From contig OU015490.1 of assembly GCA_907164885.2 (NCBI GenBank), positions 13,273,466-13,337,465 on the forward strand: a stretch of DNA of 64,000 nucleotides, read 5' to 3'. Positions 2,426-63,966 of the stretch are shown one piece after another; within the stretch, counting starts at the first letter, position 1; the number at the start of each line of letters is the position of its first letter. The translations under genes were made by a program, and so were the position numbers. This DNA comes from Dolomedes plantarius (lineage: Eukaryota > Arthropoda > Arachnida > Araneae > Dolomedidae). The notes below the pieces were generated by a model. It saw only the letters and a program-made list of their open reading frames with translations, did not search any database and had not been told where the DNA came from.

Positions 2426-3641
2426 CACTCACGAGCCAAAACATTATGACCACCTGTCAAAAACGAGTTGGCCCACCTTTGGCGCGCAACACAGCTTCAA
2501 CCCGCCTTGGCATGGATGCCACAAGTCCTTGGTAGATGGCCGGAAACAGATTGTACCAGATGTTTAAGCAACGGTCACGCAAATCCGAGATATTGCGAAT
2601 TGGTGGTCTTTGAACTCTGAGCTTCCGTCCCATGACATCCAAAATATGTTCTATCGGATTGAGATCCGGTGAGTTAGGCGGCCAGGACATTAACTGGAAT
2701 TCAGCATCATGTTCCTGGAACCACTCCAACACAATTTTAGCCTTGTGACACGGGGAGTTGTCCTGTTGGAACATTCCATTTCCAGCTGGAAAAACAGAGG
2801 CCATGTAAAGGTGCAACTGGTCCGCAATGATGTTCAGATACCCTGTAGCATTCATGGTCTGCTCTACCACAACCACGGGTCCCAGAGACGCCCAAGAGAA
2901 CGTCCCCCAAAGCATAATACCGCCACCACCGGCCTGTGTATGACCTACTGTACATTGACGGAGCAACAGTTCGTCTGGAAGACGGCGTATCCTGACATCG
3001 CCATCGGCGTGATGAATGACAAACCGTGATTTATCTGACCAGGCAACTTTCTCCCACTGATCCATGGACCAGTCGCGATGTTCCCGGGAACAGCGCAGGC
3101 GCAGTTGGCGATGACGCTTGGTCAGCAAAGGCACACGAGTGGGACGTTTGCTGCGTAGCCCCATATCCAACAGTGTCCGCTGAACAGTGCGCTGCGATAC
3201 TATTCTACTTGGCCCTGCATTGTATTGGGCTGTCAACTGAGCCACTGTCTTGCTCCGGTTTTGCTTCACCCTGCGAGACAGTCTCCGACGACCTTTTTCT
3301 TTGATAGCGTGTGGACGTCCAACACCATGTCGTCTACTGCTGTTTTCACCGTCATTCATCCACTTTGCATAAGTACTAACAACTGTAGGTCGGGAACAAC
3401 CCATGAGTCGTGCAGTTTCGGAAATACTTGTTCCGAGCCTTCGATCCATTACAATCTGCCCTCCATCAAAGTCGCTTAGATCCACAGCCTTTCCCATAAC
3501 GCACAGAAGTAAGTGAAAGAATGATTCTTCAGACTCTCCAACAGCAGTTAAATACCACTTCCACCTGATCACGTGCCTTCCACGTCATCCAGGCAAATTC
3601 ATTGCAAAATGTAGGGGTGGTCATAATGTTTTGGCTCTTGA

Positions 3642-3644
<3 letters not shown>
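2426..3644 (-). mobile_element. Complete Tc1-like DNA transposon, DD36E type
   Basis: The ends are inverted copies of each other over 29 bases with one mismatch. The left end reads CACTCACGAGCCAAAACA and the right end, reversed, CACTCAAGAGCCAAAACA. Both ends abut a TA, the expected target duplication of the superfamily, at 2424-2425 and 3645-3646. Total length is 1219 bp, usual for a Tc1 element. One uninterrupted transposase frame lies inside on the minus strand. The right flank is a pure (TA)n tract, so the element sits at the edge of a microsatellite. With matched TIRs, the TA duplication and an intact frame, this is the best candidate for an active element here. Confidence 0.93.
2457..3497 (-). 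CDS. Tc1-like DDE transposase (DD36E), apparently intact
   Basis: This is a cut-and-paste transposase. It should bind its TIRs through an N-terminal paired helix-turn-helix and cut and join DNA through a DDE RNase H-fold core in the nucleus. I start at the ATG giving MGKAVDLSDFDGG (346 aa); the frame stays open 25 codons further upstream, but that extension is not family-like. The HTH region (about residues 15-75) includes SISETARLMGCSRPTVVSTY and a basic stretch. The catalytic residues are D in WSDKSRF, D in QQDNSPCH and E in SPDLNPIEH. I count 36 residues between the last two, which matches the published DD36E (Incomer) group better than classic DD34E. No stop or frameshift interrupts it. 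No intron is visible. Confidence 0.9.
   Translation of the reverse strand: MGKAVDLSDFDGGQIVMDRRLGTSISETARLMGCSRPTVVSTYAKWMNDGENSSRRHGVGRPHAIKEKGRRRLSRRVKQNRSKTVAQLTAQYNAGPSRIVSQRTVQRTLLDMGLRSKRPTRVPLLTKRHRQLRLRCSREHRDWSMDQWEKVAWSDKSRFVIHHADGDVRIRRLPDELLLRQCTVGHTQAGGGGIMLWGTFSWASLGPVVVVEQTMNATGYLNIIADQLHLYMASVFPAGNGMFQQDNSPCHKAKIVLEWFQEHDAEFQLMSWPPNSPDLNPIEHILDVMGRKLRVQRPPIRNISDLRDRCLNIWYNLFPAIYQGLVASMPRRVEAVLRAKGGPTRF

Positions 3645-3696
<52 letters not shown>
3645..3696. repeat. (TA)n tract joining two Tc1-like elements
   Basis: About 52 bases of pure TA alternation lie exactly between the right end of the first Tc1-like element and the left end of the second. Each element therefore uses a TA of this tract as its target duplication. 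Confidence 0.95.
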
Positions 3697-3699
<3 letters not shown>

Positions 3700-5046
3700 T
3701 ACTGGCCAGAATGGATGACTCACCACAAAAAACTGTGATGTTTATGAATGCACAAGAATAATTGCATTTAACTAAGTATTTATTTTATGGGAATTATTAA
3801 TTTTAGTTATATAAGCACAGTATACATACATAATTGAGAAAGGGTTCAATATTTGGTGTGGAAACCTTTTTTTTCCAATACAGCTTGGATACGATCAGGC
3901 ATGGAAATACATAATTTTTCGCAATAGTCTGGTGTAATTTCTGTAATCCACACTTGTTTTATAGTTTCTCTAAAGTCCGAAACTGAAGTGGGGTTGAGCT
4001 CAGCAACTTTGCGCTTTATATTACCCAACAGTTCTCGATTGGGTTTAGATCCGGGGAATTTCCGGTCCACAGCCCAAGGATCTGAAACCCCTGCTTTGCA
4101 ATCCATGTCTTAACAGCTTTAGTCTGGTGGCAAGGTGCTCCATCATGTTGGAAGTGTGTGCACTGGTTGATATTCATAAACGGTGGTAACTTCTCTTTTA
4201 GCACATTGAGATAAACAGTTCCATTAATTGATGTGTCTTCAGACATGAACCACAATCCACATCTTCCTTTGGCACAAATGGCTCCCCAGACCATGAATTT
4301 TGCAGCATGCTTCACGGTGGGAATAATGTAGCGTTGACACTCTCTTTTATTGGGAGGCCGTCGTATGTTTCTACAAAATGCATAAAACTGCGATACTTGA
4401 GTCTCGTCTGAAAACATCACATGTTTTCATTGCTCCACAGTCCAATCCTGATACTTTTTACAAAATGTCAGTCGGTCAGCAATGTTTTTGGGAGATAATT
4501 TAGGCTTCTTAGCAGGCTTGTAGGACTTTAAATTGGCATTGAATAGCCTCCTGCGGATTGTCCTTTGGCTAGGAATATTAACATCTTTTGGTAAACCAGC
4601 TTGGATTGCTTTCGCTGATTTTCTGGGTAACTTCTTCGCTGCCAAAATTATGGACTCATCCATGCGCTTGCTTGTGCTCTTGGGACGACCTTTTGGCTTT
4701 GAATATCCATAATTTCCGGTTGTTTTGAAATTACTTATAGACCTGGAAACTGTCTTTTGTGCCAATTGTAATCTGGCAGCAATTTCCCGAGTACTATTAC
4801 CTTCTTCGCTCAGAATCTTTATTTGTGCATGCATTTCGCGTGAAATTCTTTTACCAGGCATTTTTATATTATTTCACCCTTCTGCAAAAATTTGTACGTC
4901 AACACACGGCGAGCACAACTAATGAACTAACGTAATGCCAAGCAAGAACACCTGCACATTGGCAGACAGACAAAACCAACATCTGGCGCCAATACGTCAC
5001 TATGAATGGGAAAAAACAAATGAGTCATCCATTCTGGCCAGTACTG
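3697..5046 (-). mobile_element. Tc1-like DNA transposon, DD35E type, full length but disabled
   Basis: Perfect terminal inverted repeats of about 26-27 bases begin CAGTACTGGCCAGAATGG at the left end and are mirrored at 5020-5046. TA dinucleotides flank both ends. The length of 1350 bp is normal for the family. The single transposase gene, on the minus strand, carries one nonsense change and one frameshift, so this copy should be non-autonomous while keeping usable ends. Confidence 0.92.
3846..4861 (-). pseudogene. Tc1-like transposase (DD35E), broken by one stop and one frameshift
   Basis: Reading leftward from 4861, the N-terminal part begins MPGKRISREMHAQIKI and holds the paired HTH (STREIAARLQLAQKTVSRSI) and a GRPKST linker. 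An in-frame TGA at 4427-4429 follows WTVEQ, where relatives carry Trp, so TGG to TGA is likely. The same frame resumes with FSDETQVSQF (first catalytic D), then QHDGAPCH (second D) and NSPDLNPIEN (E); I count 35 residues between the last two. Just after that motif, near 4020-4045, the frame shifts by one base and the C-terminal 86 residues, ending KKGFHTKY, continue in another frame. No other lesion was seen, so the inactivation looks recent. The reading frames need no intron. Confidence 0.9.

Positions 5047-13679: not shown

Positions 13680-13732
<53 letters not shown>
13680..13732. repeat. (TA)n tract, left flank of the LTR retrotransposon
   Basis: About 53 bases of TA alternation ending where the LTR's TGTAACAT begins. 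The tract resumes directly after the other LTR at 21751, so the retrotransposon split one microsatellite. Confidence 0.95.
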
Positions 13733-13736
<4 letters not shown>

Positions 13737-14184
13737 ACATGTGGATACCCAAGGGGAGAGAAGACTGGCATCCAGCATGTCACAAGGGATGAAGAGTAGT
13801 CGTGGCTCGAAGAATAGACAACTCTGCAAGTTACGGCATCACAAAGCTTTATTAGGAGGAGAATACGTCTCCCCAAGACAGTTACAAAATCCGAAAAGCG
13901 CACATGTATGTTGATCAGACGGCTTATATAAACTTTGTCATGTGATCATGATAGCGATTAGGGATTTACTGTTGTCGATAAGTCACATGTGGTTTTATGT
14001 AATCTGCGCAGAGCCTATATGAAATCTTGGGTGACGCCACGCAATTTTGGAAAAGGAAGCCATTTAATATTTTCCACTAGAGGCCTTTTAGGACTTAGAT
14101 TTGAAAACGAAAGTTAGCTCGTACGCCCAAGGGAATTTAGAATAATGTTAGATTTTAAAATGGTATGTGGTTTTTAATGTTATA
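13733..14184 (-). repeat. 3' LTR of the gypsy element
   Basis: Starts TGTAACATGTGG and ends TTTAATGTTATA; the termini form a short inverted repeat (TGTAACAT / ATGTTATA). Differences from the partner LTR that I can see are at GGGATG/GAGATG, TTTACTG/TTTGCTG, ATGTTAG/ATGATAG and TATGTGG/TATGGGG. Confidence 0.93.
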
Positions 14185-16248: not shown

Positions 16249-19200
16249 TTATTCGTGGTGTAGTTTTAAGTTCTCTGGTGCATTATAATATCTTAATCTG
16301 CAAGCATGGACAATTTCAGAATCTCGTTTAGTGTGAAAATTTGGTTTATCAATTTCATAATTAACTTTTGACATTTGTTTTAGAATAGTGTAAGGTCCAG
16401 AATAGGGTGAGCTTAATTTTCTTGTATTAGGGTAGTTAAATTCTTCGAATAACACTAAATCTCCAACATTAAATTTAGATTCTACAAAACGTGCATCATA
16501 TTTTACTTTATTCCTATTATGGTAATTAATTGTCCTTTCTTTGGCTAATTTTCTCGCCTCATCCACCTGAGGATAAAAATCTTGTTTTTTAACATGAGGT
16601 TCATAAGGTAATATTCCAAAAAGTAGGTAAGCTGGGGTCATTTGGGTAACTGAATGAACGTATTATTGTATTCATTAATTACTTCCTTTAATAGGGTTGT
16701 CCAAGAAGTTTTACTTGTTGAGTTAATTACTTTGCACCTTAATCTAGTAATTATTGTTTGATTTACCCTCTCTACCTTCCCATACGTTTGTGGATGATGA
16801 CTCGATGTAAGTAATTGTTGCACATTATTATGCTCTAAAAATCTTCTAAACTTTGAACATGTAAAAGCTGCATTTCTGTCTGTTAGCAATTTTTTTGGTG
16901 TTTGAATTTGGAATATTTGTTTTAAGCAATTTGTATAAGTTTCAGTAGTTACGCTTTTTGATGGAAAAGCCCAAATATAACTCGTTGCATGGTCAATTAT
17001 CAAATGTAAATATTTCTTTGTGGAATTATAGTAATTAAATCCGCCTACTGTGTCTAAACTTAAGCACTCAGAGGGTTGGTCTGTCGGAGGTACTTCTTGC
17101 AGCAATCAAAACCTTTTCTGTCTTTTCTTTTTGTTTAATTGACAAGTATGGCAATGTTTAACATAGTTACTAATGTCCTCATTGATTTTGGGCCAATAAT
17201 ATCGGGGTGTAAGTAATTGCATTGTTTTATTTATTCCAGGGTGTCCATAGTCATCGTGGATTCTTTTTAAAATTTCTAACCTCAATGAAAATGGTACTAC
17301 AATTTTTAAAAATCCTTTCTTTCTCACATAGATTACATCATTTAGTTTTTTATATTTAAGTCCCTGCACATTGTCTTTATTTTGAAAATCTACAATCTTT
17401 TGTAATTCGATTAAATGATCTATTTGTTGATTAGGTTCTGAAATAGGATTTCTGGATAGCATGTCGGCCTCAATGTTCGCAGTTCCTTTCTGGTATTTTA
17501 TTTCATAGTGAAACATACTTAATTTTAATGACCAACGAAAAAGTCTTCCTCTAACATTTTTAATGTTCCTCAACCAGACCAAGGCTGCATGGTCAGTGTG
17601 AATTGTAAATTTCCTACCATGGAGGTAGTGGTAAAACCGATCAAGACTATCAACTATAGCGAGACATTCAAGTTCTGTGATTGAGTAATTTACTTCATAA
17701 GGTTTCAAAACACGTGAATGATAAGCTATGGGATGTAGCACCCCATCTTCACCTGGCTGTTTTAAAACAGCTCCAACCTGATGTTTACTAGCATCCACAA
17801 ATAAATGACAGTCTTTGTTTACATCATACAATTGCAATATTGGCTTACAAATCAATAAATTCTTAAGATCCTCAAAAGCTTCTTGGCACTTGTCTGAGCA
17901 TCCCCATTTTACTCCCTTTTTCAATAATGTATTTAATGGATGTCTTACTTTTGCATATTTTGGAAGAAACTTATTATACACATTTATTGTGCCCAAGAAT
18001 CTTTGGAGTTCTTTTACATTAGTTGGTGGTTTCAAACACTTTATCTTTTCAATGTTAATGTTGTCTTGGGGCAATTTTCCCATTTGTTACATTATATCCA
18101 AGAAAATTAATTTGTTGCTGCAGAAAAGTACATTTAGCTAATTTTAACTTGATATTCTCTTTTTTGAAAATGTTAAACAGTATATCTAAATGTTCAAGGT
18201 GTTGTTCTTTGGAGTCTGAAAAAATTATAATATCATCGAAATAGTGGCATGCAAAGTTAACTTTATATTTATCTAAAATTCTCCTGATAGTCTTATTGAA
18301 TATTGCAGGGGCGTTCTTTAAGCCAAATGGAAGTCTTAGCCACTCGTATAAGCCAAAAGTAGTGGCAAATGCCAATTTCTCAGTATCTTTTGGGTGGACG
18401 GGTGCATGCCAATACCCTGAGGTAAGGTCTAAAGTTGAAAAGTAATTAGCTCTGCTTAATTTATCTAGAATATCATCAATTCTGGGTAAGGGTTCTGCAT
18501 CTGTCTTAGTAATTAAATTTAGTTTTCTGAAATCAATACAAAGTCTAGTTTTTCCTTCATTTCGCTTTCTTGCCAAAGTCACAGGACTTGAGTATGAACT
18601 ATGTGATTCTTTTATGATTCCTGCTTCTAACAAATTTTTAATTTGGGTCCTGATCTCTTTTTCCTCAATTGGCGAAGTCCTGTATGCTCTTAGACTCACT
18701 GGCAAATCAGAATTGAGGATTATTCTTTGGGGTTCCATCCTTATTTTGCCTATGTCATATTTGTTAGTTGAAAACAGTCTATTATTTTTGTGCAATAAAT
18801 TCTTTAATTCCCTATCAACATCTAAAATTTTGATTTGATCATTAATGTCAACATTTTCATAATTTGGGGTATTTTCTGCTTTTATTTCACCAGAGTGTTC
18901 ATTAAAATTGTCATTTACATCATAATCAATACAGAAAATATCATTTTCTTTCTGCGAGTTCTCTTCATAAGGGTTAAACATATCAGAAACTTCAATTTCA
19001 TGAACATTACTATTATTATACACATGCTTATTATCACATTTATTTTGTAGGTGTAATGAAATTTTACTTATATCACAAATATTAAACATCTTCAAAGAAA
19101 TTCTATTTTGATACACACAAAATTGGTTACAGTCAATTACTAATTTAAACTCTTTACACTCAGGAAGTCCCAGAATAAGATAAGGCAAGTCATTGTCCAA

Positions 19201-19479
19201 AACATATGCAGAAATGTTTCTAATTATTTTCCCTATTCTCAAAGTTAATACACATTTAGTTGTAATTAAGATTTCACCTTCAGCTTGCCTGACCTTAATT
19301 GGAGAGCTTGAATAACATTTCAGTTGACACTGCTTGACCAGTTTTTGTGACATCAGACTAATAGTCGAAGCAGTGTCAATCACACAATTTAAAAAATTCT
19401 GTTTCTCATTTTCATATAGTCTTTTTGTTTTGTCAACCCCATTATTTCTGATAATGTTCCCCCTCAATGACAGTAATTG
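16249..19479 (-). pseudogene. pol: Ty3/gypsy pol (protease-RT-RNase H-integrase), disrupted
   Basis: Read leftward, the segment after the gag stop (18055-19479) has a protease motif IDTAST, with Ala where DTG/DSG is usual, and a reverse transcriptase with LCIDFRKLN, LDLTSGYWH, LPFGLKNAP and the active-site box YFDD. A one-base shift near 18060-18085 leads to 17106-18083, with the RNase H motifs LFVDAS, ELECLA and TDHAALVW and the integrase zinc finger (HDDYGH ... HCHTC). An in-frame TGA at 17106-17108 then interrupts the frame. The integrase core follows at 16638-17105 with LSLDTV, LLTDRN and GKVERV as its D, D, E. A last frameshift near 16640-16660 leads to the C-terminal segment 16249-16641. 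The gene runs in the same frame as gag across TGA 19480-19482. Confidence 0.93.
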
Positions 19480-20530: not shown

Positions 20531-21298
20531 TTTATAAGTTTAACAAAATATCACAATTATATATTTCAATTAAAAACAGGAATATAATACCATACAATCA
20601 CATTAAAAAAAATATTTCCTGTACTGTTTTTATATGTTTTCCTCCATTACTAAAATTATCAAAATATTTCAAATTAATACGTCAAACAGGAATATCATAC
20701 TTTCTATAGCATAGAAATCACAGTTTACAAAACAATTTTAAAAAGTTTATGATGGGAGACATACAACCTGGTCATGTGATGCTTGTCTCGTTGAAGATTC
20801 CAAAATCCTTTTGAACAGAGTAAAAAAAAAACACAACACTCTTAAAATCTCCACAGAGCAGCGCTGGGCTTGCACTCAGGGATCAAAATGAAAACTTGAC
20901 TTACACCGAAAAAGAAGATTGTGTTATATTTTAATTTATTTCCGACTAAATTTTCACCCACACCGATGAATTTTAAATGGTGGGGATTACGCACTTTTTA
21001 CATGATAACACTGGCGAAGAATTTAAATGGTGATCACACGGAGCAATGGGGAACACAATCACTAGGAAGATTCACCTGAACGCGCACAATCTTCGATGGC
21101 ACACACATACTACGACGGAATGACGGGGAAAGAGGAGACCTCGACCTTGACACATAAAGCCCACAGCGTGAGATAACTTTTCTCCTTTGACCGCAAACAG
21201 CAACCGTAAAACTTATGGGCTGGAAATCCACTGTGGGATTTCCCGTGCAGCAAAACTTGCATCACTGTTACAAGTCTGTACATCCTTGACGACTAATC
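20531..21298 (-). other. 5' leader of the gypsy element
   Basis: Lies between the 5' LTR and gag. The bases next to the LTR read GATTAGTCGTCAAGGATG in sense orientation, lacking the TGG expected for a simple tRNA 3'-end primer site. The primer is therefore unresolved; an internal tRNA or self-priming type is possible. Confidence 0.6.
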
Positions 21299-21745
21299 TG
21301 TAACATGTGGATACCCAAGGGGAGAGAAGACTGGCATCCAGCATGTCACAAGAGATGAAGAGTAGTCGTGGCTCGAAGAATAGACAACTCTGCAAGTTAC
21401 GGCATCACAAAGCTTTATTAGGAGGAGAATACGTCTCCCCAAGACAGTTACAAAATCCGAAAAGCGCACATGTATGTTGATCAGACGGCTTATATAAACT
21501 TTGTCATGTGATCATGATAGCGATTAGGGATTTGCTGTTGTCGATAAGTCACATGTGGTTTTATGTAATCTGCGCAGAGCCTATATGAAATCTTGGGTGA
21601 CGCCACGCAATTTTGGAAAAGGAAGCCATTTAATATTTTCCACTAGAGGCCTTTTAGGACTTAGATTTGAAAACGAAAGTTAGCTCGTACGCCCAAGGGA
21701 ATTTAGAATAATGATAGATTTTAAAATGGTATGGGGTTTTTAATG

Positions 21746-27095: not shown

Positions 27096-27337
27096 TTCTT
27101 CCTGGTTGTTACACAGGAGACAAAGAGGGTCGGGAGCCAAGTAAATTCTGTAGAGGTGCTTGCGAAGGCAATCATGGCCAGAAAAAAAGTCGTAGCATTG
27201 CCACAGAGTGGACTAGAGGTAAATCTGTGGCAATGCTAAGGCCTTTTTCTGGCCATGATTGCCTTCGCAAGCACCTCCACAGAATTAACTTGGCTCCCGA
27301 CCCTTTTTGTCTCTTGTGTAACAACCAGGAAGAAATG
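27096..27337. repeat. Inverted duplication of a non-LTR retrotransposon 3' segment
   Basis: A left arm (TTCTTCCTGGTTGTTACACA onward) is the reverse complement, with few mismatches, of the right arm ending AACAACCAGGAAGAA. The innermost pair is TAGCATTGCCACAGA at 27193 and TCTGTGGCAATGCTA at 27224, leaving a 16-base spacer. Each arm is about 110 bases, so the region can fold into a long hairpin. Confidence 0.9.
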
Positions 27338-30377: not shown

Positions 30378-32660
30378 TTACGCATTCGGATCATAGTAGG
30401 GTTTCATGCGTAACACATGCACCACATCTCGTGTATTTCGTCTTTTTGACATAGGATCAAAATCTTGAACTTCATAGGTAACGTCGAATAGCTGCCTTAA
30501 TACTTGATATGGACCGAAATACCTTTTGAGGAGCTTTTCTGATAGGCCTACTTTACGCACGGGGGTAAAAATCCATACGAGGGTTCCAGGCAAATTTTAC
30601 TATTCGGTGCTTTGCGTCATAGATCCGCAATCTTTTTCTTGAGCTTCCAGTGTCCGTACTCGAGCTAGCTGCCTTGATTCTTCTGCTTGGGTGATTACTC
30701 GATCGAGGCAACCCGACACTGTTCCATCAGGGCTATACGGGAATATAGTATCAGTGTTGTTTTGGCTTCTCGACCATACACTAAGCAGAAAGGTGCGAAT
30801 CCAGTGGTATCTTGTCGAGAGATATTGTAAGCAAACGTGACAAATGGTAGTATTGTGTCCCAGTTTTTCTGTTCTATGTCCACATACATAGACAACATAT
30901 CGGCTAAAGTTTTGTTAAGTCACTCAGTCAGACAATTTGTTTGTGGATGGTATGAGGTCGTCATTCGGAGGACAACATTGCAGGTTCTGTTAATTTCGGA
31001 AATTACCTTCGACTGGAAGACTTGTCCTCTATCGGTGATGATATTCCGTGGCGCCCCATGCTTCAAAATGATTTCTTTGACAATGAATTTTGCAACTTCG
31101 GGTGCTTCAGAGGTTGGCAGAGATTTTTTTATGGCTGAACGAGTCAAATAATCGGTACATACGATGATCCATTTGTTACCAGCCTTAGATTTTGGAAATC
31201 TTCCTAATAAATCCCTACCCACCCGCTGGAAAGGTACCTCTGCGGGAGGTATAGGAATAAGACGACCAGGCGGTTTTTGAGGAACGGATTTTCTTCGTTG
31301 ACATTCTTTACAGTGCATTACATAGCGGCGTACGCTTCGATAAAGCCTAGACCAATAAAATCTCTTGCGTATTCTATCATACGTCTTCACAAATCCCAAG
31401 TGGCCGGCAGTTGGTTCGACATGCAAATGTCGAAGAATACCCAGCCGCAAATGCTTAGGAATAACTGGTAACCATCTCTTTCCCGAAGGATCAAAATTTT
31501 TCTTGCACAGGATCCCGTCGATTATCTCGAGGTCTACTTTGCCAGACTTTTGTGGCTTCGTGGAAAACTCGGACTCAAAGTATTCAGAAAGCACAGAATC
31601 CTTACGTTGCTCACGTGCTAAATTAATGCCGGGACCAATGGCACTGATATCTACTGAAGTGGCATGGTCATCAATGGGGTTTCTGGAAAGGCTATCGGCA
31701 TCATTGTGTCTTTTTCCACTTTTGTATATCATAGAAATATCGTATTCTTGGAGTCTTAGAGCCCATCTTGCCAATTTCCCAGAAGGATCTTTTAAATTAG
31801 CTAACCAACACAACGCGTGATGGTCTGTCACAATTGTGAATGGTTTTCCAAACAAATAAGGGCGGAACTTCATAATGGCCCATACGACTGCAAGGCACTC
31901 TCTTTCGGTTGTTGAATAATTTCGTTCGGCTTTTGACAGTGTTCTAGATGCATAGGCTATGACTTTTTCCTCGTTCTGTTGCTGTTGGACCAACACAGCA
32001 CCAATACCATATCCACTAGCGTCAGTGTGTAATTCAGTGGGAGCTGTTTCATCAAATAAACCTAATATTGGTTCAGAAATGAGCGCTGACTTTAAGTCGT
32101 TGAAAGCTTCTTCCTGTGTAGAGGTCCACATAAATTTGGAATCACTTTTTAGCAAAATCTGGAGAGACTAGGCTCGATAGCAGAAGCCTTTGATAAAGCG
32201 TCTGTAGTAGGAGCACAGTCCGAGAAAGCTTCTGACGTCATGGACGCTCTTTGGGGCAGGAAAATCTTGAACTGCTCTTATTTTATCCGGTTCGGGTTTT
32301 ACGCCTTCACCGGATACTAGATGGCCCAAGATCTTGATTTCCCTTGCACCAAACAGACATTTCTTAGGATTCAGATTAGGCCAGCTTCATAAATGCATTT
32401 AAGGACACAGGTGAGCCTTTTAAGGTGGTCCGAAAAAGTTTGAGAGAATACCACAATATCGTCTAAATAACACAAGCACATTTGCCACTTAAGGTGACGC
32501 AGTAAATTGTCCATTGTTCTCTCAAAAGTTGCTGGAGCATTACAAAGTCCAAACGGCATGACCTGAACTCATTTAAGCCTTCACTGGTGACAAATGCCGT
32601 TTTTTCCCGATCTGCTTTGTCTACCTCTATTTGCCAATATCCCGAATAGATATCCATGGA
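30378..32660 (-). pseudogene. pol: Ty3/gypsy pol fragment (RT C-half, RNase H, integrase)
   Basis: Read leftward, RT begins DIYSGYWQIEVDKADREKTA. After a frameshift it gives MPFGLCNAPATFE and the box CYLDDIVVF. A further shift near 32370 precedes LNPKKCLFGAREIKILGHLV. A TAG near 32165 precedes the 411-residue frame 30920-32155, which carries RNase H (ELHTDASGYG, ERECLAVV, VTDHHALCW), the integrase zinc finger (AGHLGF ... HCKECQ) and catalytic VGRDLLG, ITDRGQ and YHPQTNCLTE. TGA at 30920-30922 follows (CGA to TGA is likely). The frame continues at 30695-30898 with NWDTILPFVTFAYN, then shifts before the C-terminal GPYQVLRQL segment at 30378-30593. At least five lesions make it inactive. Confidence 0.9.
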
Positions 32661-42639: not shown

Positions 42640-43500
42640 TTATGTTCCTATTTATCGTTTTAAGCCAGAATTCTCCACTTTAGCATCCCGGCAATAAGAA
42701 AATTTCGTCTTTCATTGAATACCCTTCTAAGAACCCATAAAAAGCCCGAAACCTACGTTCAAGGTTACAAGGTACGCTAAAGGTGTATATATATATTCAG
42801 TTGGTAATACACATCAGGGCTTTCTCAAAACATTTGTCATCTTCAGACAGGCTTAAATTTGTACCACCAAGTGTGATAGACAATGGTTCTTTCCGAACTA
42901 GGTTTTGTGATTGCCCTCTGTCAGTTATATGTAAATTTTTAGAGAAGTTCCGAATTTGAAATCACTTTCTCTGCTATGTATCCATTGGCTATGCCTTGCT
43001 AAGGAGCATATAAGAAGGTTGCGCCCTAGATCCAAGCCTACCAAGAACGCTGGAGGTGAATATATTCGTATCTGTAACCTTCCAGCAGGGTATGCTCTAT
43101 ACATGTAGTCATCTTCAAGAACTCTAAATTTTGTACTAGAATTTATGATAAACGATAGTTCTTCCCGAGTTATTTCGCTGTACTTTGTCATTCACCAGTA
43201 AAAAATTACAGAAATTCCTCATCTGAAGTCCCCTTTCTGTCCAGCGAACTCATCGGCCATTCCTGGTTAAGGCCCGGTGCACACGAGCGATCCGGTGTCG
43301 TTGCGGTCCGGTGAGTCGGTTAGTTTAACTCTATGTACTGCCTGATCGCAACTGCGGTGCCGCAACGACATCGGAACGCTCGTGTGCACCGAGCCTAAGG
43401 AGTTCATATCCCGAGTGAAACAGTGTCCAAGTCTGCCGAGAAGTGTACACATATTTTCAAGTAGTGGCACCTCAAACTTAATCAGTTCTTGTTTGCTGCA
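42640..43500. repeat. Diverged tandem repeat, about 270-base unit, 2-3 copies
   Basis: GTCATCTTCAGACAGGCTTAAATTTGTAC at 42834 (first 20 bases shown by position) corresponds to GTCATCTTCAAGAACTCTAA at 43108. Likewise AGTTCCGAATTTGAAATCAC at 42945 corresponds to AATTCCTCATCTGAAGTCCC at 43211. Spacing is about 265-272 bases. The minus-strand open frame 42925-43191 lies in one unit and is not conserved in the others. Confidence 0.75.
43268..43400. mobile_element. Small foldback insertion with 5-bp direct repeats
   Basis: Arms CCCGGTGCACACGAGCGATC and the inverse of the right arm (CTCGGTGCACACGAGCGTTC) pair over about 35 bases with three mismatches. TAAGG flanks both sides (43268-43272, 43396-43400). 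The neighbouring repeat unit has the uninterrupted sequence GCTAAGGAGCATAT, so the empty site is visible. The tips resemble those of the palindromic element at 63694 (GTGCACACG versus CTGCACACG). Confidence 0.8.
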
Positions 43501-54604: not shown

Positions 54605-54767
54605 ACACGGCGCAACTGGTTACAAACCCGGTCGACCGGGTTTGTAACCAGTTGCGCCGTGTGCGTGGCTCCATTCAATTACATGGGTTACGACTCAACA
54701 CGGACTGGTTTGTGATTCGAGTCAGTTATCAGTTTCTTTTGAGTTGCTCCGTGTGCAGACGGCCTAA
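54605..54767. mobile_element. Palindromic element, copy 1 (centre plus right arm)
   Basis: A 58-bp palindrome (ACACGGCGCAACTGG ... CCAGTTGCGCCGTGT; centre GGTCGACC) is followed by the right arm ending GCAGACGGCCTAA. The left arm is missing beyond the inner 29 bases. It abuts the truncated MITE family 2 copy. Confidence 0.85.
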
Positions 54768-56486
54768 GACTTTAAATAACCCCACACAAAGAAGTCACCT
54801 GCATGTAGATTGTCCTGCATGAAGATTGTCTGAGGAAGGAATTGCCTTTGGTGAAGTTTTGGAATGACAGAACTAGTCAGAATATGGAGATACTTTTGCG
54901 TAGTAACAGTACAGATATGTGCTCCTGCTCGATTAATGTTCTCAAAAAAGAATGGTCCGATTATGAAGTCTGCTGTGAAGACACAACCAACAATAATATG
55001 AAAAATTAGGAATATTATAAATCTTTATAAGGTATTGATTTTTGACCTTATCTGAACAATATGAATCATTTTAATATTTTTAGGTCTTTGTTAAACATAT
55101 TCTCAATATATCTGCTAATACTGAATCATAGTTTAAAAGGCAGAATATTTGAATAGATTTGGCACTCTACTCAAACGTACAACTAAAGATGGTATGAGAA
55201 AATATCACCATAGCAACCTGAAATTCAGCAAGATTCCTAAGGTCACAGCAGTTATGGAATCTAAATGAAAATTACCTCTTGAGACCCTTTTTCTACATGA
55301 AGGTATTAGTCAATATTCAGTGCTCCAAAATAAAACAAATGATTCACTGAACGTCTAGAGACAAGAGGTATGCCAGAAAATAGGGATCGTAGATATTATC
55401 AAAAATGTTTCGAATTTGTATATACAGTACGTTGGGGAGATGAAACGTAAGAAAAATCCAGCAGAAGAACGTTCCAGTGACTATTATAACGTAAAAAATA
55501 ATTTGTTTAAAGATTGGCTCAACATTTTGAAATGTAAATTGACAAGGTGATGATACTATTCATTCACAAATCTCAAAGAACTTCATAGGGAATTTATTAC
55601 CAATTGAACCTTACACTTTTATGTATAAAATCTCTAAAACTCATTTAACAACTTATATTTTTATAAGCAGTTAAATTTTTGTATTGTATGAGTACTTCAT
55701 CGTATTCATTGTTGATAACTTAACAATTCAAAGACTTTCCTCAACATCTTCAAACGTAATCTGTTTCAATATTCCTTTGATGTTTATACTTTCACTTCAT
55801 ATTTATAATTTAAATGAATCATTTTTAAGAAAATGCAGCTAAATTTTTGTATGTATTTTACTAAAGAGAAGAAAACGTTCTTTTTTGTTTTCTTTCTTTA
55901 CGAGGTGAAAGAAGTTTAAAAATCAAACATGTTCTATTGCGAACGCCACATTCTGGAAAATTAATCAAATTAAGTTTTTTTCACCTTTGGCTTAAAACAA
56001 AGTAAAAGCTTTTCGAATATTAATCTAAAATTTTTGGATTTTTTTTTTTTTTTGTGTGTGTATACAAAAATACTTTGTAAGGTATTTTATTGTTATTTTT
56101 TGTATTTTTCCAGTTTTCTTTCCGTTGTATATATAAAACAGAAGTCAATTGGAGTTTTTTGCCCTCAATTAGCTAAAAATTTTCATTTCAGATTTATTCA
56201 ATAAACGTTTACATTTTCGGAACATGAAGTAATGAAGTTACTTTTAGCCTCTGGTAGAATAGAAGAGGACAGTGCTTTCGAAACATCAATTGAAAATTTT
56301 AATGTTGACTTTGTGTTCTTTTTATGTACGTAAAAAATTATTAAGATAGTAAATTATTATTTCTGTTTCTAGCAAGTTTTTTTAGAATTAACTCTCCATC
56401 CCTTCCTTTTAGCACTATATTCTGGTAAAACCTTGGGAACTCCTTACTCAGAAGAGAAGATTTCTCGCTAAAACTGACCGCAACTC
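54768..56486. other. AT-rich spacer
   Basis: Nothing recognised. Confidence 0.4.
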
Positions 56487-56753
56487 TAAGCCCGTCTGCA
56501 CACGGAGCAACTCAAAAGAAACTGATAACTGACTCAAATCACAAACCAGTCCGTGATGAGTCGTAACCTATGTAATTGAATGGAGCCACGCACACGGAGC
56601 AACTGGTTACAAACCCGTCGGACGGGTTTGTAACCAGTTGCGCCGTGTGCGTGGCTCCATTCAATTACATAGGTTACGACTCATCACGGACTGGTTTGTG
56701 ATTTGAGTCAGTTATCAGTTTCTTTTGAGTTGCTCCGTGTGAAGACGGCCTAA
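56487..56753. mobile_element. Palindromic element, copy 2, 267 bp
   Basis: Two 133-base arms around a single central G (56620) are reverse complements except for about four sites. The tips are TAAGCCCGTCTGCACACGG and, on the right, CGTGTGAAGACGGCCTAA. No coding sequence is present. Confidence 0.93.
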
Positions 56754-56793
56754 TACAACCAACCAGAAAAACGGTACGATACGCTCCTATAGG

Positions 56794-57461
56794 TAGGGAT
56801 ACGTAAATTTCGCATAACAACTATGGAAATTTCGCAGGTAAGTATCAAAATTCTTAGTTAAAAGCTAACATTGTAATAGTCTCCACATTATTTTCCTTAA
56901 ATATTTGCCTTCTGTCATTAATTACTATGTGGTACATACTAAAATATCTCAGCATCTACTCTGTAAACGGAATTATAGAGGCACTGTATAGCTGCCTTGC
57001 AGTGTTAAGGTAGCAGAATTTCGTTGCAATTAAAATCTGTATAACATCAACAGGAGTCTCTTGGTTGACTATTTAAGTAACTGAAATACCCTTGACTTTG
57101 GCACTCAAGAGTCAAGAGACGTGCTTAAATCTACTAAATTGCCCCATAAAACTTTATGGTTGATTTTTTTCAGTTAGATTTTTAGGTTTGACTCCGGTAC
57201 GGACAAACTGTCCGAGTGAAATTCGGAGCAAATCCGAAGGAGAGTAAGATTTCTCAGTTATAGACCTCTGATGGTCTTAGTTAAGCAATTATATTAATAA
57301 ATTATTACTATTATTACCTAATTTCGCTTAAAAAGCCATTTATTGCCGAGTTTTCACCGAAAAGTAGTAAAAAAAAACTATTTTCGCATTTATTCGCTCA
57401 TATCGCCAAATTTCGCATTTATTCGCATCTATTTCGTAAATACGAAAATTACGTATCCATA
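56794..57461. mobile_element. hAT-like MITE with 8-bp target duplication
   Basis: The left tip TAGGGATACGTAAATTTCGC and the inverse right tip TATGGATACGTAATTTTCGT match closely. Flanking octamers CCTATAGG (56786-56793) and ATTATAGG (57462-57469) agree at six of eight positions. The subterminal region repeats ATTCGCATTTATTCGC motifs. There is no open frame. The 8-bp duplication suggests hAT. Confidence 0.65.
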
Positions 57462-58345
57462 ATTATAGGGTATGAAGCAAATCCAATCGTACTACCAATT
57501 AGAAGCTGGGAATCAAGAAAGAGTTTATCAGCTCTATCTGCAAAGTTATTCAATTGGAAGAAACGAAGAATTCGATGGAACCAAAGCCGAAACAATAATC
57601 AGTGATAGTCTACATCAGAGAAATAAGTGGAGAATAAAGATGAATTCAGGTAGTTTAAGCGACATGTATACAGTTATTATGCACTTCTACCCTAACTTTG
57701 GGTATGTATATCTTGAAGTGGCACTCTAAATAATTTCATTCAAACACAGTTCTTACATAACAACAATGCTTATTTAAATATTTGCACCTATAGATTTTGC
57801 TTTTCAACATAGAGCATACGTACTACTAGTACGAGATATATATATAGCATTCATGCAAGGGAAATACAATTCAATATATTCACTTGTATAACTACTCCTT
57901 CAAGAAAAATACAATTTGCAATACTCACAGATACTTTGAAAGTCAACCAGCAGCGCTGTCACGTAAACTTTGGGCCTAACAAGAACTCGCGTAGGTTTGA
58001 AGCAACCTAGCTATGCCTCCAGCAGCTGCTCGCAAAACTCAACAATTATTAAACAAGAATCTAAGCCTAGCTCCAGCGCGATACTTCGTTTCGTCAGCTC
58101 TACTCCTCCTTTCACTTCCTCTCTCTTCCTTTCGTTTCGTCGACACTTCCTCAACACTTCGTTTCTTTAATCTAGCTGCTTGGTATTTATACCAACCGCG
58201 TATGCCACAATTAGCATCTCTTAAGCGGCTTCTTTAAATTTATGCACCTAAAAGTTCGATTATTGTGAATCGAATCTTATGTAAACCTTACACATGTACA
58301 AAGAAGTATGTTTTTTGTTGGGGGGGATTTCAAAATAAGCTAATT
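57462..58345. other. Spacer without recognised gene
   Basis: It contains an 85-codon ATG-initiated frame (57472-57729) and two overlapping frames near 58000, none with a recognisable family. The less AT-rich, C-rich patch 58010-58190 could be a fragment of something older. Confidence 0.35.
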
Positions 58346-59035
58346 TTAAGGTATCCGACAACATTTAAAATGTCGATATTGATGAAAATTTCGATTTTTT
58401 TAAAATTCCTGTTTCTTAAAGAATGTAAATTTTTATATCTAAATCTCCTTTTAGTTTTTCTACGGGCATTAGAAATGAAATTAGAGTTATTTTAAGATGA
58501 GCGGCAGTAGTAAATTTCAATGCAAGTGAAAACTTATTTTTCATTAAGAATCTGTGATAACTAGAAATATAATCATGATGTGTCTATGAAATATTTCAGT
58601 TATGTTTTCCAAAATAGTAAGAATGTAATGAACAACAGATTAGGCTCTAGTAATATTAATTATGGTTTTATAGCTGTGTTATAAAAATTCTCATGAGAAA
58701 TGACTGAAATTTTACATGCAATTGCATGTAATGACCTGCAACTTTTATAGATTTCAAGATATCGATCAATTCATTACACTCTTGAGGGTTTTGTCTGCAT
58801 ATGATATAAAGAAATTAATGTTTAATGCATCATTTTTGGGGTACAGCTAGAGCCGTTTGAATAAAAATTTGCTAAATTTCTATAAAACTCTTCAACATTG
58901 TAAAACGCTGTATAGTTATAGGCTACTTTCCCATCATTTACCTATTTTAGTGCTATATTCCCACAAAAAAGAGCACAGAAAGTATCGCAAGTAAACTTTT
59001 TTTTAAATGGTCCCGAACATAGTCCGATACCTTAA
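58346..59035 (-). mobile_element. TTAA-flanked MITE, family 1, copy 2 (inverted)
   Basis: The ends are TTAAGGTATCCGACAAC and the inverse of TTAAGGTATCGGACTATG. The 690-bp interior aligns in reverse with 7328-8064, for example ATGTCTATGAAATATTTCAG read against its complement there. Confidence 0.88.
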
Positions 59036-59785
59036 ATGATGGTAATGTTCATTGTTTTTTAATGAAATAGTAGCAATTATTTTTTTACTTAATATTGCTT
59101 GGGTGTTACATTTTTTTTCAATTTCAGAATGGTGCCTTCATTAAGATAGCTCAGTACTTACGCCTTTCCCAATGCTTTTAGATCTAACTTGCTTAATAAA
59201 TATTAAAAACGTGCTATTCATTCTCCCAAAATTGCTAGAAATTCCTCGCGATGAAATCTTGTCTGATGTTTCGGTTACACATTAAATGAGTCTCAGAAGA
59301 GAAAAATTATCAAACTTGAATTTTATAACGTCTTAATAGCAGCTAAATTCAATATTCATTTTGTATGCTATCAATTCTTCTAAGTATGTTCCTTATCTAA
59401 AATGGATAAAAAAATATATCTAAATGTAGTATTTGTAGAAGAGCACTCCTAATAATACCATGCCAAATTCTTTTCCGATCTAACATTTTTTAGCATCGAT
59501 ATTGAATAATTTACAATAATAATATGTTTTTAAAACTTTATCAGTATTGGTTGTCAAATTATCTTTTAAACTATTCAACCCAATTTGCAAATAAATCACG
59601 ACATAGTTTTGGAAGTTAAATAATTTCCCTTTTTGCACATTAAGCATTCTTACTGTTAAAGACACTTTTAGAGAATCGGGAAATGTCAAACGAGATCAGA
59701 TTTGGATCCTATAGCTAGCTTTTCTTGAAATTCTTGGCAATCTAACATAGTATTTAATACTGTTTATAGATTTTTTTATATGTTT
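59036..59785. other. AT-rich spacer between inverted MITE copies
   Basis: Nothing recognised. Confidence 0.4.
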
Positions 59786-60539
59786 TTAAGGTACCCGACT
59801 GTTCAGAGCTATTTTTTTCTTTCAAAAACTTTACTTGCGAATATTTGTGTCCATTATTTTCAAGAAATATAGCACCAAAATAAGAAAATTTTGAAAACAT
59901 TGGGCATAACTATGGAACCTTTTATAAAACTAAGGGTATTTGGTCAATATTTTTTACATAAACAAATTTTTACATAAACAAGCTCTAAAAAACGAGCTAT
60001 CTAGCCTTAAAAAACGAAATTAGGCATATAGTATTAATTGCTTTTTATCATATGAACGTAAGGCCAAGGTGATTTTATTGAACTATTATCTTAAATCTAA
60101 TTAAAAATGCAGGTAATTATAAGCAGTTACATGTAACATATTAGTCATTTCTCATGAGATTTTTTTTATAAAAGCAGGTATAATTCAACAATTAATATAG
60201 CTAGAGCCTAATTTGTAGTTCATTACATTCTAAGAATTATTAAAAACTTACCTGAAAATCTTTATAGACTTATCATAATTATATTTTGAGTTATCATATC
60301 AGTCGTATACATTGTTAAAGAAAAATAAGTTCATCAGAAAACACAATTAAAGTTCTCACTCGTATCGAAATTGACAGCTGCTGCTCATATTTAAATCATT
60401 CTCATTTCATTTCTAATATTTTTAGATAAAAAATAAAAGCATACTCAGAAACAAACATTCACATTCTTTAAGAAACAGGAATAAAAAATAATCAGAATTG
60501 TCATCTGAATCGACTTTTAATCGTAGTCGGATGCCTTAA
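59786..60539 (+). mobile_element. TTAA-flanked MITE, family 1, copy 3
   Basis: The ends are TTAAGGTACCCGACTG and the inverse of TTAAGGCATCCGACTACG. The 754-bp interior has the same orientation as copy 1, including TTTTGAGTTATCA and AGAAAACACAATTAAAGTT. With copy 2 it forms an inverted pair about 750 bp apart. Confidence 0.88.
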
Positions 60540-60665
60540 TATAACAAAGTTATAAGTATGTCTCAAGATATTGAAATTGGAAAAGAGTTCTATAAAAAAA
60601 TCCGAGTAGAATTATTTTACCTTCTAACATTTTTTTAATTTTGATTTCCATCTCGGCAGCTACGG

Positions 60666-61207
60666 AAATATATTTTATAACAATTGATTTTGATTGTAGA
60701 ATTTACTTTACATTTTTAAAAGATTAGAGTTAATTTTGTTTATCTCAAATTTACTAAATTTCCAAAAGAATAAGAGATCGAATTGGAATTTTAATTCTAC
60801 TTTTAATTTCAACTGAAATCCAAATGTATCTAAAGAGGATAGCCGAATGACTAAGTTACTGGCATTCATGATCTGTGAATTTGAGTACCACATAGCACAT
60901 GAATGTTGAGAGCTACTTGAAATCTGAATCAAACTATAGGTCCCAGCCTAATCAGCTCGCCTGTAGTATAAGATAATCCTAATTCTCAACCAACTAAACT
61001 TATATTAGATAAAAATTAACACTTTAAAAACATAAATTTTTGAGAAAATCTGATATGAAAATTAACACTTTGAGACTACAGACTTTAGATGATTTTTGAG
61101 ATGAAAATTAACTCATTGAAAACATATATTTTGAGAAAATCACACATGAAAATGAACACACAAAATTAACATTTATCTTAAATGAAAATTAACATTTTGA
61201 GAAAATA
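60666..61207. repeat. Duplicated SINE-bearing unit, copy 1
   Basis: TTTTATAACAATTGATTTTG onward, then a family A SINE (60833-61003), then four or five short repeats of ATTTTGAGAAAATC and GATGAAAATTAACA. A shorter copy with the same order lies at 62044-62503. Confidence 0.85.
60833..61003 (+). mobile_element. tRNA-derived SINE, family A, copy 2
   Basis: GGATAGCCGAATGACTAAGT (A-box region), GTGAATTTGAGTACCAC (decayed B box), then CAAACTATAGGTCCCAGCCT and AACCAACTAAAC, in the order of copy 1 at 6862. Confidence 0.75.
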
Positions 61208-61611
61208 CTTGACGAAAAATACCTATAAATGAATTTTTCCTCGAAATAATCTGAACATAATAATAATAGCAAGTATTTCTCAAAATGCGGCATTTAAAAA
61301 AATTACATACTGTTAAGAATACTGTACAGTTTTCAAATGTTATTTCTCTCATAATTTAATAAACAACTTAGCCTCGCTAGAAACCGAAATGCTTAACACC
61401 TACTCAGGTAAATGATCCCTCATTAAATTATGATCCCCTCTTTCATCCATAGAGAAAAGGGGAAGAGGGGGCTAATTTACTATAGAAAAAAGTTTGGTTT
61501 TTTCGGGCATCACACTAATGATGTCTTAGTCACACTCTTTCAATCTTTTCATACCTAATACGAAAAGAATTCATGCTGGACTTTGGTTAATCCTTGCTGG
61601 AGTTAGAAATT
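61208..61611. other. AT-rich spacer
   Basis: Nothing recognised. Confidence 0.4.
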
Positions 61612-61722
61612 TACACAAAGTGGTAATTTCATCTCTGATTTCCTCTAAATCTATGTTATGTTCATCTCAGGTTTTCTCTAAAATCTATGTTCTCAATTTT
61701 CATCTAATATAAGTTTAAATAA
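61612..61722 (-). repeat. Inverted fragment of the duplicated unit's short-repeat tail
   Basis: Read on the minus strand it gives TTATATTAGATGAAAATTGA, GAACATAGATTTTAGAG and AAATCAGAGATGAAATTACC, the same motifs as the tails of the units at 60666 and 62044. Confidence 0.75.
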
Positions 61723-61896
61723 TATTTCGGGTGGAAATCTTAACTCTTGCTCAACCAATCCATGCTGTAATCCTTTTTATCATCATTATTATTATTTTTA
61801 TCATACCGATTGTTGAGACAACTCCTATGAACTGATGAGAATATTTAGACATAGGTTAAATTCTTTTATTTCCTGTAGTTAAATAATTCCCGGGCC

Positions 61897-62043
61897 CGAG
61901 GTAGCCCTATGGTAGCACGTTGGACTTCGGACTAATGGTGCCCCTTTTGAATCCTAACAAACGCCATTTAATTCCTACTTGTCTAGACATAATATGGGCA
62001 AATTAAATGCTTAGACCAGAAAGCGCTTCTATGATGTCAGATA
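61897..62043 (+). mobile_element. tRNA-derived SINE, family B, copy 2, 5' part
   Basis: CCCGAGGTAGCCCTATGGTA and the following tRNA-like region align with 49969 onward, ending near TCTATGATGTCAGA. The element is split here by the unit at 62044-62503. Confidence 0.75.
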
Positions 62044-62503
62044 TAGAAATAGATTTTATAGCAATTGATTTTGATAGTAGAATTTATTTTTTCACTTTTA
62101 AACGATTAGATTCTATTCTGTTTATCACAAATTTACTAAATTTGCAAAAGAATAAGAGATGGAATTAGAATTTTAATTCTACTTTAAATTGCAACTGAAA
62201 TCCAAATGTGTCTAAAGATGATGGCCGAATGGCTAAATTACTGGCATTTAGATTCATGATCTGTGAATTTGAGTACCACATAGCATATGGATGTTGAGAG
62301 CCACTTGAACCAAACTATAAGTCCCAGCCTAATCAACTCTCCTTCAGTATAAGATGATCATATTACTCATCCAACTAAACTTATATTAGATTTGATAAAA
62401 TAGTAACTCTTTGAAAACATAGATTTTAGAGAAAATCAGAGATGAAAATGAACACATAAAATTAACATTTATCTTAGATGAAAATTAACATTTTGAGAAA
62501 ATA
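62044..62503. repeat. Duplicated SINE-bearing unit, copy 2, inside a SINE B
   Basis: Same order as 60666-61207 but shorter in the tail. It separates the 5' and 3' parts of a family B SINE, which implies it moved into that SINE. Confidence 0.82.
62214..62380 (+). mobile_element. tRNA-derived SINE, family A, copy 3
   Basis: AGATGATGGCCGAATGGCTA (A box close to consensus), GTGAATTTGAGTACCAC, CAAACTATAAGTCCCAGCCT and a CATCCAACTAAAC end. Confidence 0.78.
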
Positions 62504-62515
62504 CCACCTTTATAT

Positions 62516-62640
62516 ATGCCACCTTTGGGGGGGGGAGGGTGCTCGATCAAATTTGTGGTGGCACCTGGCCAAGTCGGCCAAGTCCCACCTGATGCCACTG
62601 TAAACCAGAGACCTATTCCTCTGCCCGCTGCCATTTTTAT
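62516..62640 (+). mobile_element. tRNA-derived SINE, family B, copy 2, 3' part
   Basis: GGGTGCTCGATCAAATTTGT, GGTGGCACCTGGCCAAG and GCCACTGTAAACCAGAG align with the 3' body of the copy at 49969-50293. Confidence 0.78.
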
Positions 62641-62671
62641 ACCTATTATAATGTTGCACTGGCAAAGCCAC

Positions 62672-62702
<31 letters not shown>
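62672..62702. repeat. (AAT)n microsatellite
   Basis: About ten ATA/AAT units just downstream of the SINE body, possibly grown from its tail. Confidence 0.92.
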
Positions 62703-62703
<1 letters not shown>

Positions 62704-62923
62704 TCTCAGAAATAGTTGATTAAATTGATTTATTCTCCCCTCCATCCCCCTGACAGAGAAACTGCTAAGGAGTTTGATTTCCAACCGCAATAAAGTATGC
62801 TTTGTGCGTATGCCTCACAAGTAGCGTCTTGGTCTCACGCTTTCAAAATGTTGTAATTACTATCCGGTAAAACTCCTGATTGTCACCTCAGTCCCTCTCT
62901 ATGCAAATGTCTTAAATTTTATT

Positions 62924-62933
62924 CTATATATAT

Positions 62934-62978
<45 letters not shown>
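62924..62978. repeat. (TA)n microsatellite with one interruption
   Basis: ATATATATATTCTATATATA and onward, then CATAATGTATATATA leading into the tip of a mariner-type fragment at 62995. Confidence 0.92.
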
Positions 62979-62983
<5 letters not shown>

Positions 62984-62994
62984 ATGTATATATA

Positions 62995-63455
62995 CAGGGT
63001 GGTTATAATTAAAGTTCCACTTTGAAATGGTCATAAAAGGAAGACTACTGGACCAAATGTTATCAAACTTCGTAATAGTTTAAAGGAGATCATGGGAATT
63101 TCTTTTCCACCAAAAAAAAAGTTCAAAAACTCACCAGCAGGGAAGAAATGGCGCTGTATAAGTCATGAAGCGAAATAAGTCATGAAGACATCGGTTTAAA
63201 ATATGTTTAATCTTTTCTGAGACGTGTTACAAAGCATGTTCGATGTGGCGCTCACCATTTTCCGAAAGCAAGTTAAATCGTATTACTGCATTCTCAACAG
63301 TAGCTCTTAGCATATCAGGAGGAATGTTACGGACATGTCGGAGTATCGCATCTTTCAATTCCACCAAATTCTTTAGATTATTATCATAAACAGTGCTGTT
63401 GATATAACCCCATAGCCAGAAGTCACAGGGGCCGAATTCAGACTTCAAAATTCAC
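62995..63455 (-). mobile_element. 3' end of a mariner/IS630-type element
   Basis: The tip CAGGGTGGTTATAATTAAAG follows a TA and a (TA)n tract. The C-terminal end of a transposase is read toward this tip on the minus strand. The other end and most of the coding region are missing. Confidence 0.72.
63227..63448 (-). pseudogene. C-terminal fragment of a mariner/IS630-type transposase
   Basis: The frame reads SEFGPCDFWLWGYINSTVYD, then LKDAILRHVRNIPPDMLRAT and ENGERHIEHAL before a normal stop. CDFWLWG contains the third catalytic Asp of the DDD/DDE core in this group, and the HIEH ending is typical. About 70 C-terminal residues remain; the fragment is cut near 63450. No lesion is seen within what remains. 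Confidence 0.78.
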
Positions 63456-63693
63456 TAATTAGCGATCTGTAAGAAAACGATTTCCAGAATGCGCACACTT
63501 TAAATGGTAATTTTTTTAGGTCAATGTTTCTTAAGGTTATACAACATGACAAAAATCAAACTGTGTAAAATACCTCTCTAAGTAGGGATTAATATCTCTT
63601 GTTATCCATAAAGGTAAGTTATGACAAATGAATTACATTATTCTGAGTAGTGTTAGCCCCAAGGCCTTAGCAACAGCAACAACAACAACATTA
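63456..63693. other. Spacer ending in a CAACAA-rich run
   Basis: CAACAGCAACAACAACAACA at about 63671 resembles the tails of the SINE families, but no SINE body is upstream. Confidence 0.4.
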
Positions 63694-63966
63694 TTCTTAG
63701 GCCGTCTGCACACGGAGCAACTCAAAAGAAACTGATAACTGACTCCAGTCACAAACCAGTCCGTGATGAGTCGTAACCTATGTAATCGAATGGAGCCACG
63801 CACACGGCGCAACTGGTTACAAACTCGTCGGACGAGTTTGTAACCAGTTGCGCCGTGTGCGTGGCTCCATTCGATTACATAGGTTACGACTCATCACGGA
63901 CTGGTTTGTGACTGGAGTCAGTTATCAGTTTCTTTTGAGTTGCTCCGTGTGCAGACGGCCTAAGAA
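63694..63966. mobile_element. Palindromic element, copy 3: perfect 273-bp palindrome
   Basis: Two 136-base arms (63694-63829 and 63831-63966) are exact reverse complements around one central G, by base-by-base reading. The tips read TTAGGCCGTCTGCACACGG and its inverse. There is no open frame. It is the same family as 56487-56753 and 54605-54767. Confidence 0.95.

Follow-up and report, generated by a model that had tools for sequence, protein, structure and literature searches.

Three copies (A, B and C) of a palindromic element lie within a 64-kb stretch of the genome of the spider Dolomedes plantarius (contig OU015490.1, positions 13,273,466 to 13,337,465), referred to here as the window. 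Comparing them with related copies from the same genome, we found that in two-armed copies the arm sequence from about position 20 to 126, numbered from the GGCC tip, is homogenised, but inherited differences between the arms persist in the outermost 19 bp and at the centre. Overall, these elements are likely to be palindromic foldback miniature inverted-repeat transposable elements (MITEs) of the PHIS type, which would move as duplexes by cut-and-paste and whose arms would copy from each other in the interior.

Palindromes in the window

Copies B and C are each a 261-bp palindrome without an assigned strand. Copy B (56490..56750) consists of arms 56490-56619 and 56621-56750 around a central base at 56620, and copy C (63700..63960), which is perfect, of arms 63700-63829 and 63831-63960 around 63830. 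Copy A (54605..54764, plus strand) is truncated, with a 29-nt stub of the left arm (54605-54633) and a full right arm (54634-54764); its centre, GGTC-GACC, is its own, and a TAA at 54765-54767 adjoins the full arm. An inverted-repeat scan returned 136-nt arms, 100% complementary with a 1-nt spacer, for copy C (63694-63829/63831-63966), and 131-nt arms, 98% complementary, for copy B (56489-56619/56621-56751). As DNA, copy C folds into a single hairpin of -185.7 kcal/mol, compared with a mean of -35.8 for shuffled sequences, and none of 200 shuffles reached its value. The family tip sequence is GGCCGTCTGCACACGG, and copy B carries GCCC at its left tip and GGCC at its right.

When the arms were aligned separately, copies B and C differed by four substitutions, each mirrored on both arms, at arm positions 47, 49, 88 and 126 (63746/63914, 63748/63912, 63787/63873 and 63825/63835 in copy C), just as a preliminary description of this DNA, made from the letters alone, had noticed. 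The unmirrored changes it had reported in copy B are also real, and there are three of them: GCCC versus GGCC at position 2 of the left tip, TCTTC versus TCTGC at position 9 of the right arm, and CGGAGC versus CGGCGC at position 109 of the left arm. Its view that all such changes arose after insertion must be given up for the tip difference, which is neither late nor private, as this base is confined to one arm in 40 of its 43 carriers.

Homogenisation of the arm interior

The genome (2.78 Gb, 390 contigs) was searched with copies C, B and A, which gave 1535, 905 and 1628 first-look candidates, respectively. The best 40 for each query were scored and 39 copies per query were taken, making 120 with the three window copies. 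Counts are based on the 113 of these with two alignable arms, leaving aside L038, L055, L090, L105, L115, L123 and copy A (shifted centre or missing arm), while arm distances within and between copies, and the index F derived from them, refer to 78 copies of the first 80. Three subfamilies are recognised by their markers: A by 47G and 67T, B by 47A and often 75C, and C by 49G and 126T. Copies B and C share their centre, whereas that of subfamily A differs. Next to the palindrome centre, L123 bears a direct duplication of ~25 bp.

For variants found in at least three copies, both arms carried the change in 221 of 240 instances within positions 20-126 (11 variants), compared with 10 of 86 within positions 1-19 (3 variants) and 28 of 78 in the centre at 127-130 (2 variants). 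The Fisher value for interior versus outer shares, 2e-44, is descriptive since the instances share descent. Every major interior marker followed this pattern, being on both arms versus one arm in 37 and 2 copies for 47A, 34 and 2 for 47G, 39 and 0 for 49G, 30 and 3 for 67T, 26 and 2 for 75C, and 41 and 2 for 126T. At the tips the proportions were reversed (2C, 3 and 40; 2A, 0 and 3; 17G, 7 and 33), and the centre variant 129G was on both arms in 14 copies and on one in 23. Variants seen in a single copy are nearer to independent events than shared ones; 19 were mirrored and 25 one-armed at positions 20-117, compared with 0 and 21 elsewhere (p = 1e-4, for limits set after a first look at the data).

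Arm distances point in the same direction. The mean distance was 0.38 within and 2.77 between copies at positions 20-117, 0.28 and 0.75 at 118-130, and 0.92 and 0.81 at 1-19, corresponding to F values of 0.86, 0.62 and -0.15. Thus, the arms of one copy are more alike than arms across copies at 20-126, but not at 1-19. No unmirrored site at all was present at 20-126 in 77 of the 113 copies. In an arm tree of the same interval, 178 of 226 arms had no foreign arm closer than their own partner, compared with 10/113 in a control with one shuffle of partners. This is the clustering of own arms that the preliminary description had expected, without separate groups of left and right arms. Classes of left and right arms can be rejected on distances as well, as same-end arms are no closer than opposite-end arms in tip-oriented copies of subfamily B (36 copies; 0.61 within the copy, 2.48 for the same end, 2.48 for the opposite end), A (22 copies; 0.82, 1.27 and 1.26) or C (14 copies; 0.43, 0.57 and 0.57). 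As a separate observation, in L143 and in L145 the two arms have markers from different subfamilies, a state that recombination of one copy with another could produce.

Recurrent mirroring at position 83

A less biased sample came from a genome-wide pattern for copies in which position 83 is not G. It yielded 128 matches, and among the 100 listed there were 13 mirrored pairs and 74 singles. One pair was L044, already in the sample; we examined the other 12 together with 28 singles. On realignment, 11 of the 12 pairs proved mirrored, the exception being L163, which has a third arm site in its locus. The mirrored bases were A, T and C in seven combinations of base and background, and hence mirroring at this position occurred several times. 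Among the singles, 18 of 28 had no partner site, the arm being shortened or deleted there, one was L143, with arms of two subfamilies, and one was L167, with three arm sites. The pattern overlooks mirrored copies in which another change lies close to the site, such as L040.

In this sample the arms again agreed at positions 47 (26/27), 49 (27/27), 67 (23/24), 75 (23/24) and 126 (16/17), and position 17 was one-armed in 7 of 27. At rarer outer sites in the 18 two-armed copies, 10 changes were one-armed and 1 was mirrored. Homogenisation is recurrent but incomplete, because mirroring was repeated and one-arm changes were common in this sample; many interior one-arm changes persist.

Transposition and family assignment

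Trinucleotides of the form TWA flank the palindromes on both sides in 75 of 80 copies. In the window, read on the plus strand, copy B lies between TAA at 56487..56489 and TAA at 56751..56753, and copy C between TTA at 63697..63699, whose middle base is unlike that of the right-hand TAA, and this TAA at 63961..63963. The empty sites of L020 (TAA) and L117 (TTA) show that 3 bp were duplicated, and those of L082 and L107 were too diverged to read. GGCC tips predominate, such that the terminal inverted repeat (TIR) begins with G or GG; subfamily B has GCCC at one of its tips. Among the 39 copies that lack a single marked tip, the trinucleotide has a C before it or a G after it at 42 of 78 ends. 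With TWA, the terminal GG and perhaps a C-TWA-G tendency, the palindromes match, by their sequence characters, non-autonomous foldback MITEs of the PIF/Harbinger-like (PHIS) type, nearest to NuwaII. The intact duplex would move by cut-and-paste, with the transposase presumably supplied in trans.

Other assignments agree less well with the ends. A Stowaway or Tc1-mariner MITE should have a 2-bp TA duplication, and the empty sites show 3 bp; they equally reject a TA duplication in the flanks of copy C. The Foldback/Galileo type, with its 7-bp duplication and tandem repeats in long TIRs, does not suit the 3-bp duplication found here. The arm holds one inner repeat of the 15-nt tip motif and no array. 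The one-armed copies at 54605, L090, L105 and L115 end at arm positions 103, 102, 97 and 102, and these four breaks fall at GCACACGGCGCAACT, an internal repeat of the tip motif GCACACGGAGCAACT; stubs in the position-83 sample start at 99, 113 (three), 117 and 118.

A single tip is marked in 41 copies (most of L046-L084, copy B, L016, L025, L043 and L044); in 38 of them CTAA stands before this GCCC tip, although the empty site of L074 lacks the CTAA. Perhaps bases beside the element travel with it from the donor site.

Origin of the palindrome

A non-palindromic element of 620 bp occurs at five loci (L174-L178), which were met by chance via patterns at positions 83 and 88 rather than through a survey, and whose copies are 92-96% alike. 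It has short ordinary tips (GGCCGTCCGCACACGG) and an AT-rich middle, and, in our reading, TWA adjoins 7 of its 10 ends. Its right-hand 130 bp correspond to the palindrome arm, and all five copies carry the ancestral base at positions 47, 49, 67, 75 and 126. To judge from this correspondence, the right end of the 620-bp MITE probably underwent an inverted duplication that gave rise to the palindrome, which would have split later into subfamilies A, B and C. Given its different centre, a second origin for subfamily A is possible. At 43271-43394 of the window lies a related MITE, flanked by TAA on both sides, which has GGCCCGGTGCACACGAGCG tips and 37-nt arms separated by a 53-nt spacer.

Mechanism and alternative explanations

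Many insertions whose flanks are unrelated share the one-arm differences at tips and centre. Because insertions inherit them, the element appears to be inserted as an existing duplex rather than reconstructed from a single arm. A mutation arising in either arm would be transferred to its partner or erased by it, and in this way new subfamilies would come to differ by mirrored substitutions. Candidate routes are template switching at a replication-fork hairpin, mismatch repair in an extruded hairpin, and recombinational gene conversion. Copying tracts would seldom reach the end of homology, as synthesis must rejoin the original template within few bases, and this rarity could explain the edge effect at the tips. 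Of 28 oriented B copies, 8 have a centre base that is flipped with respect to the GCCC tip, which fits inter-strand template switching as outlined in the accessible text of PMC8604942, although a one-base change is no proof of inversion.

Several points weigh against this interpretation. The 113 copies were taken as the best matches to the three window copies and not at random, the region limits were set after a first look, and copy-instances are related by descent instead of being independent events. In the position-83 sample, 8 of the 28 singles were one-arm changes in which the other arm covers the position, and rarer interior sites in its 18 two-armed copies were one-armed in 26 cases and mirrored in 15. 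Concerning transposition, the middle bases of the flanks are unequal (TTA on one side, TAA on the other) in 29 of the 75 TWA-flanked copies and equal in 46, implying more than plain target duplication on one side. The empty site of L099 reads TTA, and the left flank of the copy is TAA; that of L074 reads TATTTA, and the copy has GACTAA. Finally, the data do not separate homogenisation in the integrated copy from that in its source.

A stronger version, in which integrated palindromes are homogenised continuously at a rate well above that of point mutation, so that interior mutations either disappear or become mirrored and the centre and the last 19 bp escape, is proposed only tentatively, and we lean slightly away from it. 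We also considered an event at the locus of copy C itself, with 88C on both arms unique to that copy, and rejected it, as L129 likewise has 88C on both arms. Furthermore, 88C is on one arm in L127 and L128, and L124, L126 and L132 belong to the 620-bp relatives, most of which have C at this position; the distribution of 88C says nothing on timing.

Among the alternatives, the subfamilies could be independent palindromes derived from 620-bp MITEs already bearing the variant, in which case the mirrored differences pre-date the palindrome. We consider this improbable: a 620-bp relative does exist, and the centre of A, unlike that of B and C, makes a separate origin of A possible, but all five long copies have the ancestral bases, B and C have the same centre, 19 mirrored variants are each limited to one of 113 copies, and the seven position-83 combinations would need many origins with the same centre.

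Even less probable is that each new copy is made from one arm by hairpin or snap-back synthesis, its arms being identical at birth and diverging afterwards. Hairpin amplification has reportedly been proposed for the zebrafish Angel elements, and both the single-hairpin fold of copy C and the 77 of 113 copies without an unmirrored interior site would agree with it. However, such synthesis would erase one-arm differences common to different loci, and these abound, with one-arm carriers making up 40 of 43 at position 2, 33 of 40 at position 17 and 23 of 37 at position 129. One-arm copying at each transposition is thus rejected by the inherited asymmetric tips and centres. Of the two mechanisms that the preliminary description had offered, conversion between arms fits the data, whereas copying one arm for each new copy founders on these inherited differences.

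An assembly or polishing artefact that equalises palindrome arms merits still less credence: palindromes are difficult to sequence and polish, but here copies whose flanks are unrelated stop at the same base, and one-arm differences survive at tips, at centres and at some interior sites. Least credible is selection for pairing, through a functional hairpin RNA or transposase binding, by independent compensating mutations, as, for all the extreme stability of the hairpin, the tips that a transposase should need most are the unmatched part and the matched part exceeds 90 bp in dispersed copies.

Precedents and significance

Our preferred interpretation, interior copying between the arms of a PHIS-type MITE, has precedents for its parts, contrary to the earlier impression that no described family behaves in this way. 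Drosophila Foldback elements and human Y palindromes are further comparison systems, as is mPing, a rice element that is not a palindrome. Our literature search, in which subscription papers were mostly outside reach, found no such family named among the entries listed.

According to the accessible text of PMC4482050, PHIS elements of the NuwaII group have a 3-bp TWA/TNA duplication, terminal GG and a C-TNA-G target tendency. The spider palindromes share the 3-bp TWA duplication, the terminal GG and perhaps the C-TWA-G tendency, but differ in their 130-bp arms (13-46 bp for NuwaII TIRs in that text) and in the unequal middle bases of flank pairs (29/75), and are known here without a transposase. 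In mPing/Tourist, the available part of PMC4561436 describes 3-bp TTA/TAA duplications with several middle bases equally acceptable, and non-matching TTA/TAA pairs which, when assayed, were repaired less precisely after excision; the palindromes resemble these MITEs in their TTA/TAA flanks, unequal pairs included.

With respect to the arms, one likeness is Galileo of Drosophila, whose TIRs, in what is accessible of PMC3573991, are 98-100% identical within one copy, whereas the mean for all copies is 79.5%, and of which chimeric copies occur. There, too, the arms of one copy are more alike than arms across copies, but Galileo belongs to the P superfamily and has 7-bp duplications and long TIRs with internal tandem repeats. 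Coding palindromes of nematomorph mitochondria, as portrayed in the consulted text of PMC6649704, are perfect inverted repeats of at most 284 bp with arms evolving in concert, and one pair of mirrored substitutions separates two individuals; they are mitochondrial gene loci and, unlike the spider elements, no dispersed transposon family. Template-switch homogenisation, in which one arm templates the other and spacer inversions occur, concerns short repeats in yeast genes and RNA genes in the accessible portions of PMC8604942 and PMC8794818, again unlike our palindromes.

Arm homogenisation as such is already known; what this family clearly displays is its sharp position dependence. Inter-arm copying is usually studied in few large loci, such as sex chromosomes and organelles, or in short repeats. 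Here, many replicate palindromes of ~260 bp, together with a non-palindromic relative that gives the polarity of changes, render the position dependence directly measurable. Moreover, foldback multiplication by one-arm hairpin copying becomes testable, and it fails in this family. If homogenisation is indeed continuous, hundreds of dispersed, near-identical palindromes with known ancestral sequence would constitute a natural assay, mapping base by base how near to the end of homology arm-to-arm copying goes.

Further features of the window

Rfam and tRNA scans of the 64-kb window gave no matches, nor did scans of viral contigs with two pieces of the element, a set that possibly does not include near genomes. 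Another inverted repeat, with 91-nt arms 96% complementary and a 57-nt spacer, lies at 27096-27334 and was not matched by the palindrome query. Frames for a Tc1-like transposase and for retrotransposon reverse transcriptase, RNase H and integrase are located at 2457-4873, 17106-19479 and 30920-32167, and a pair of 300-nt direct repeats, 99% identical, at 13730-14029 and 21296-21595.

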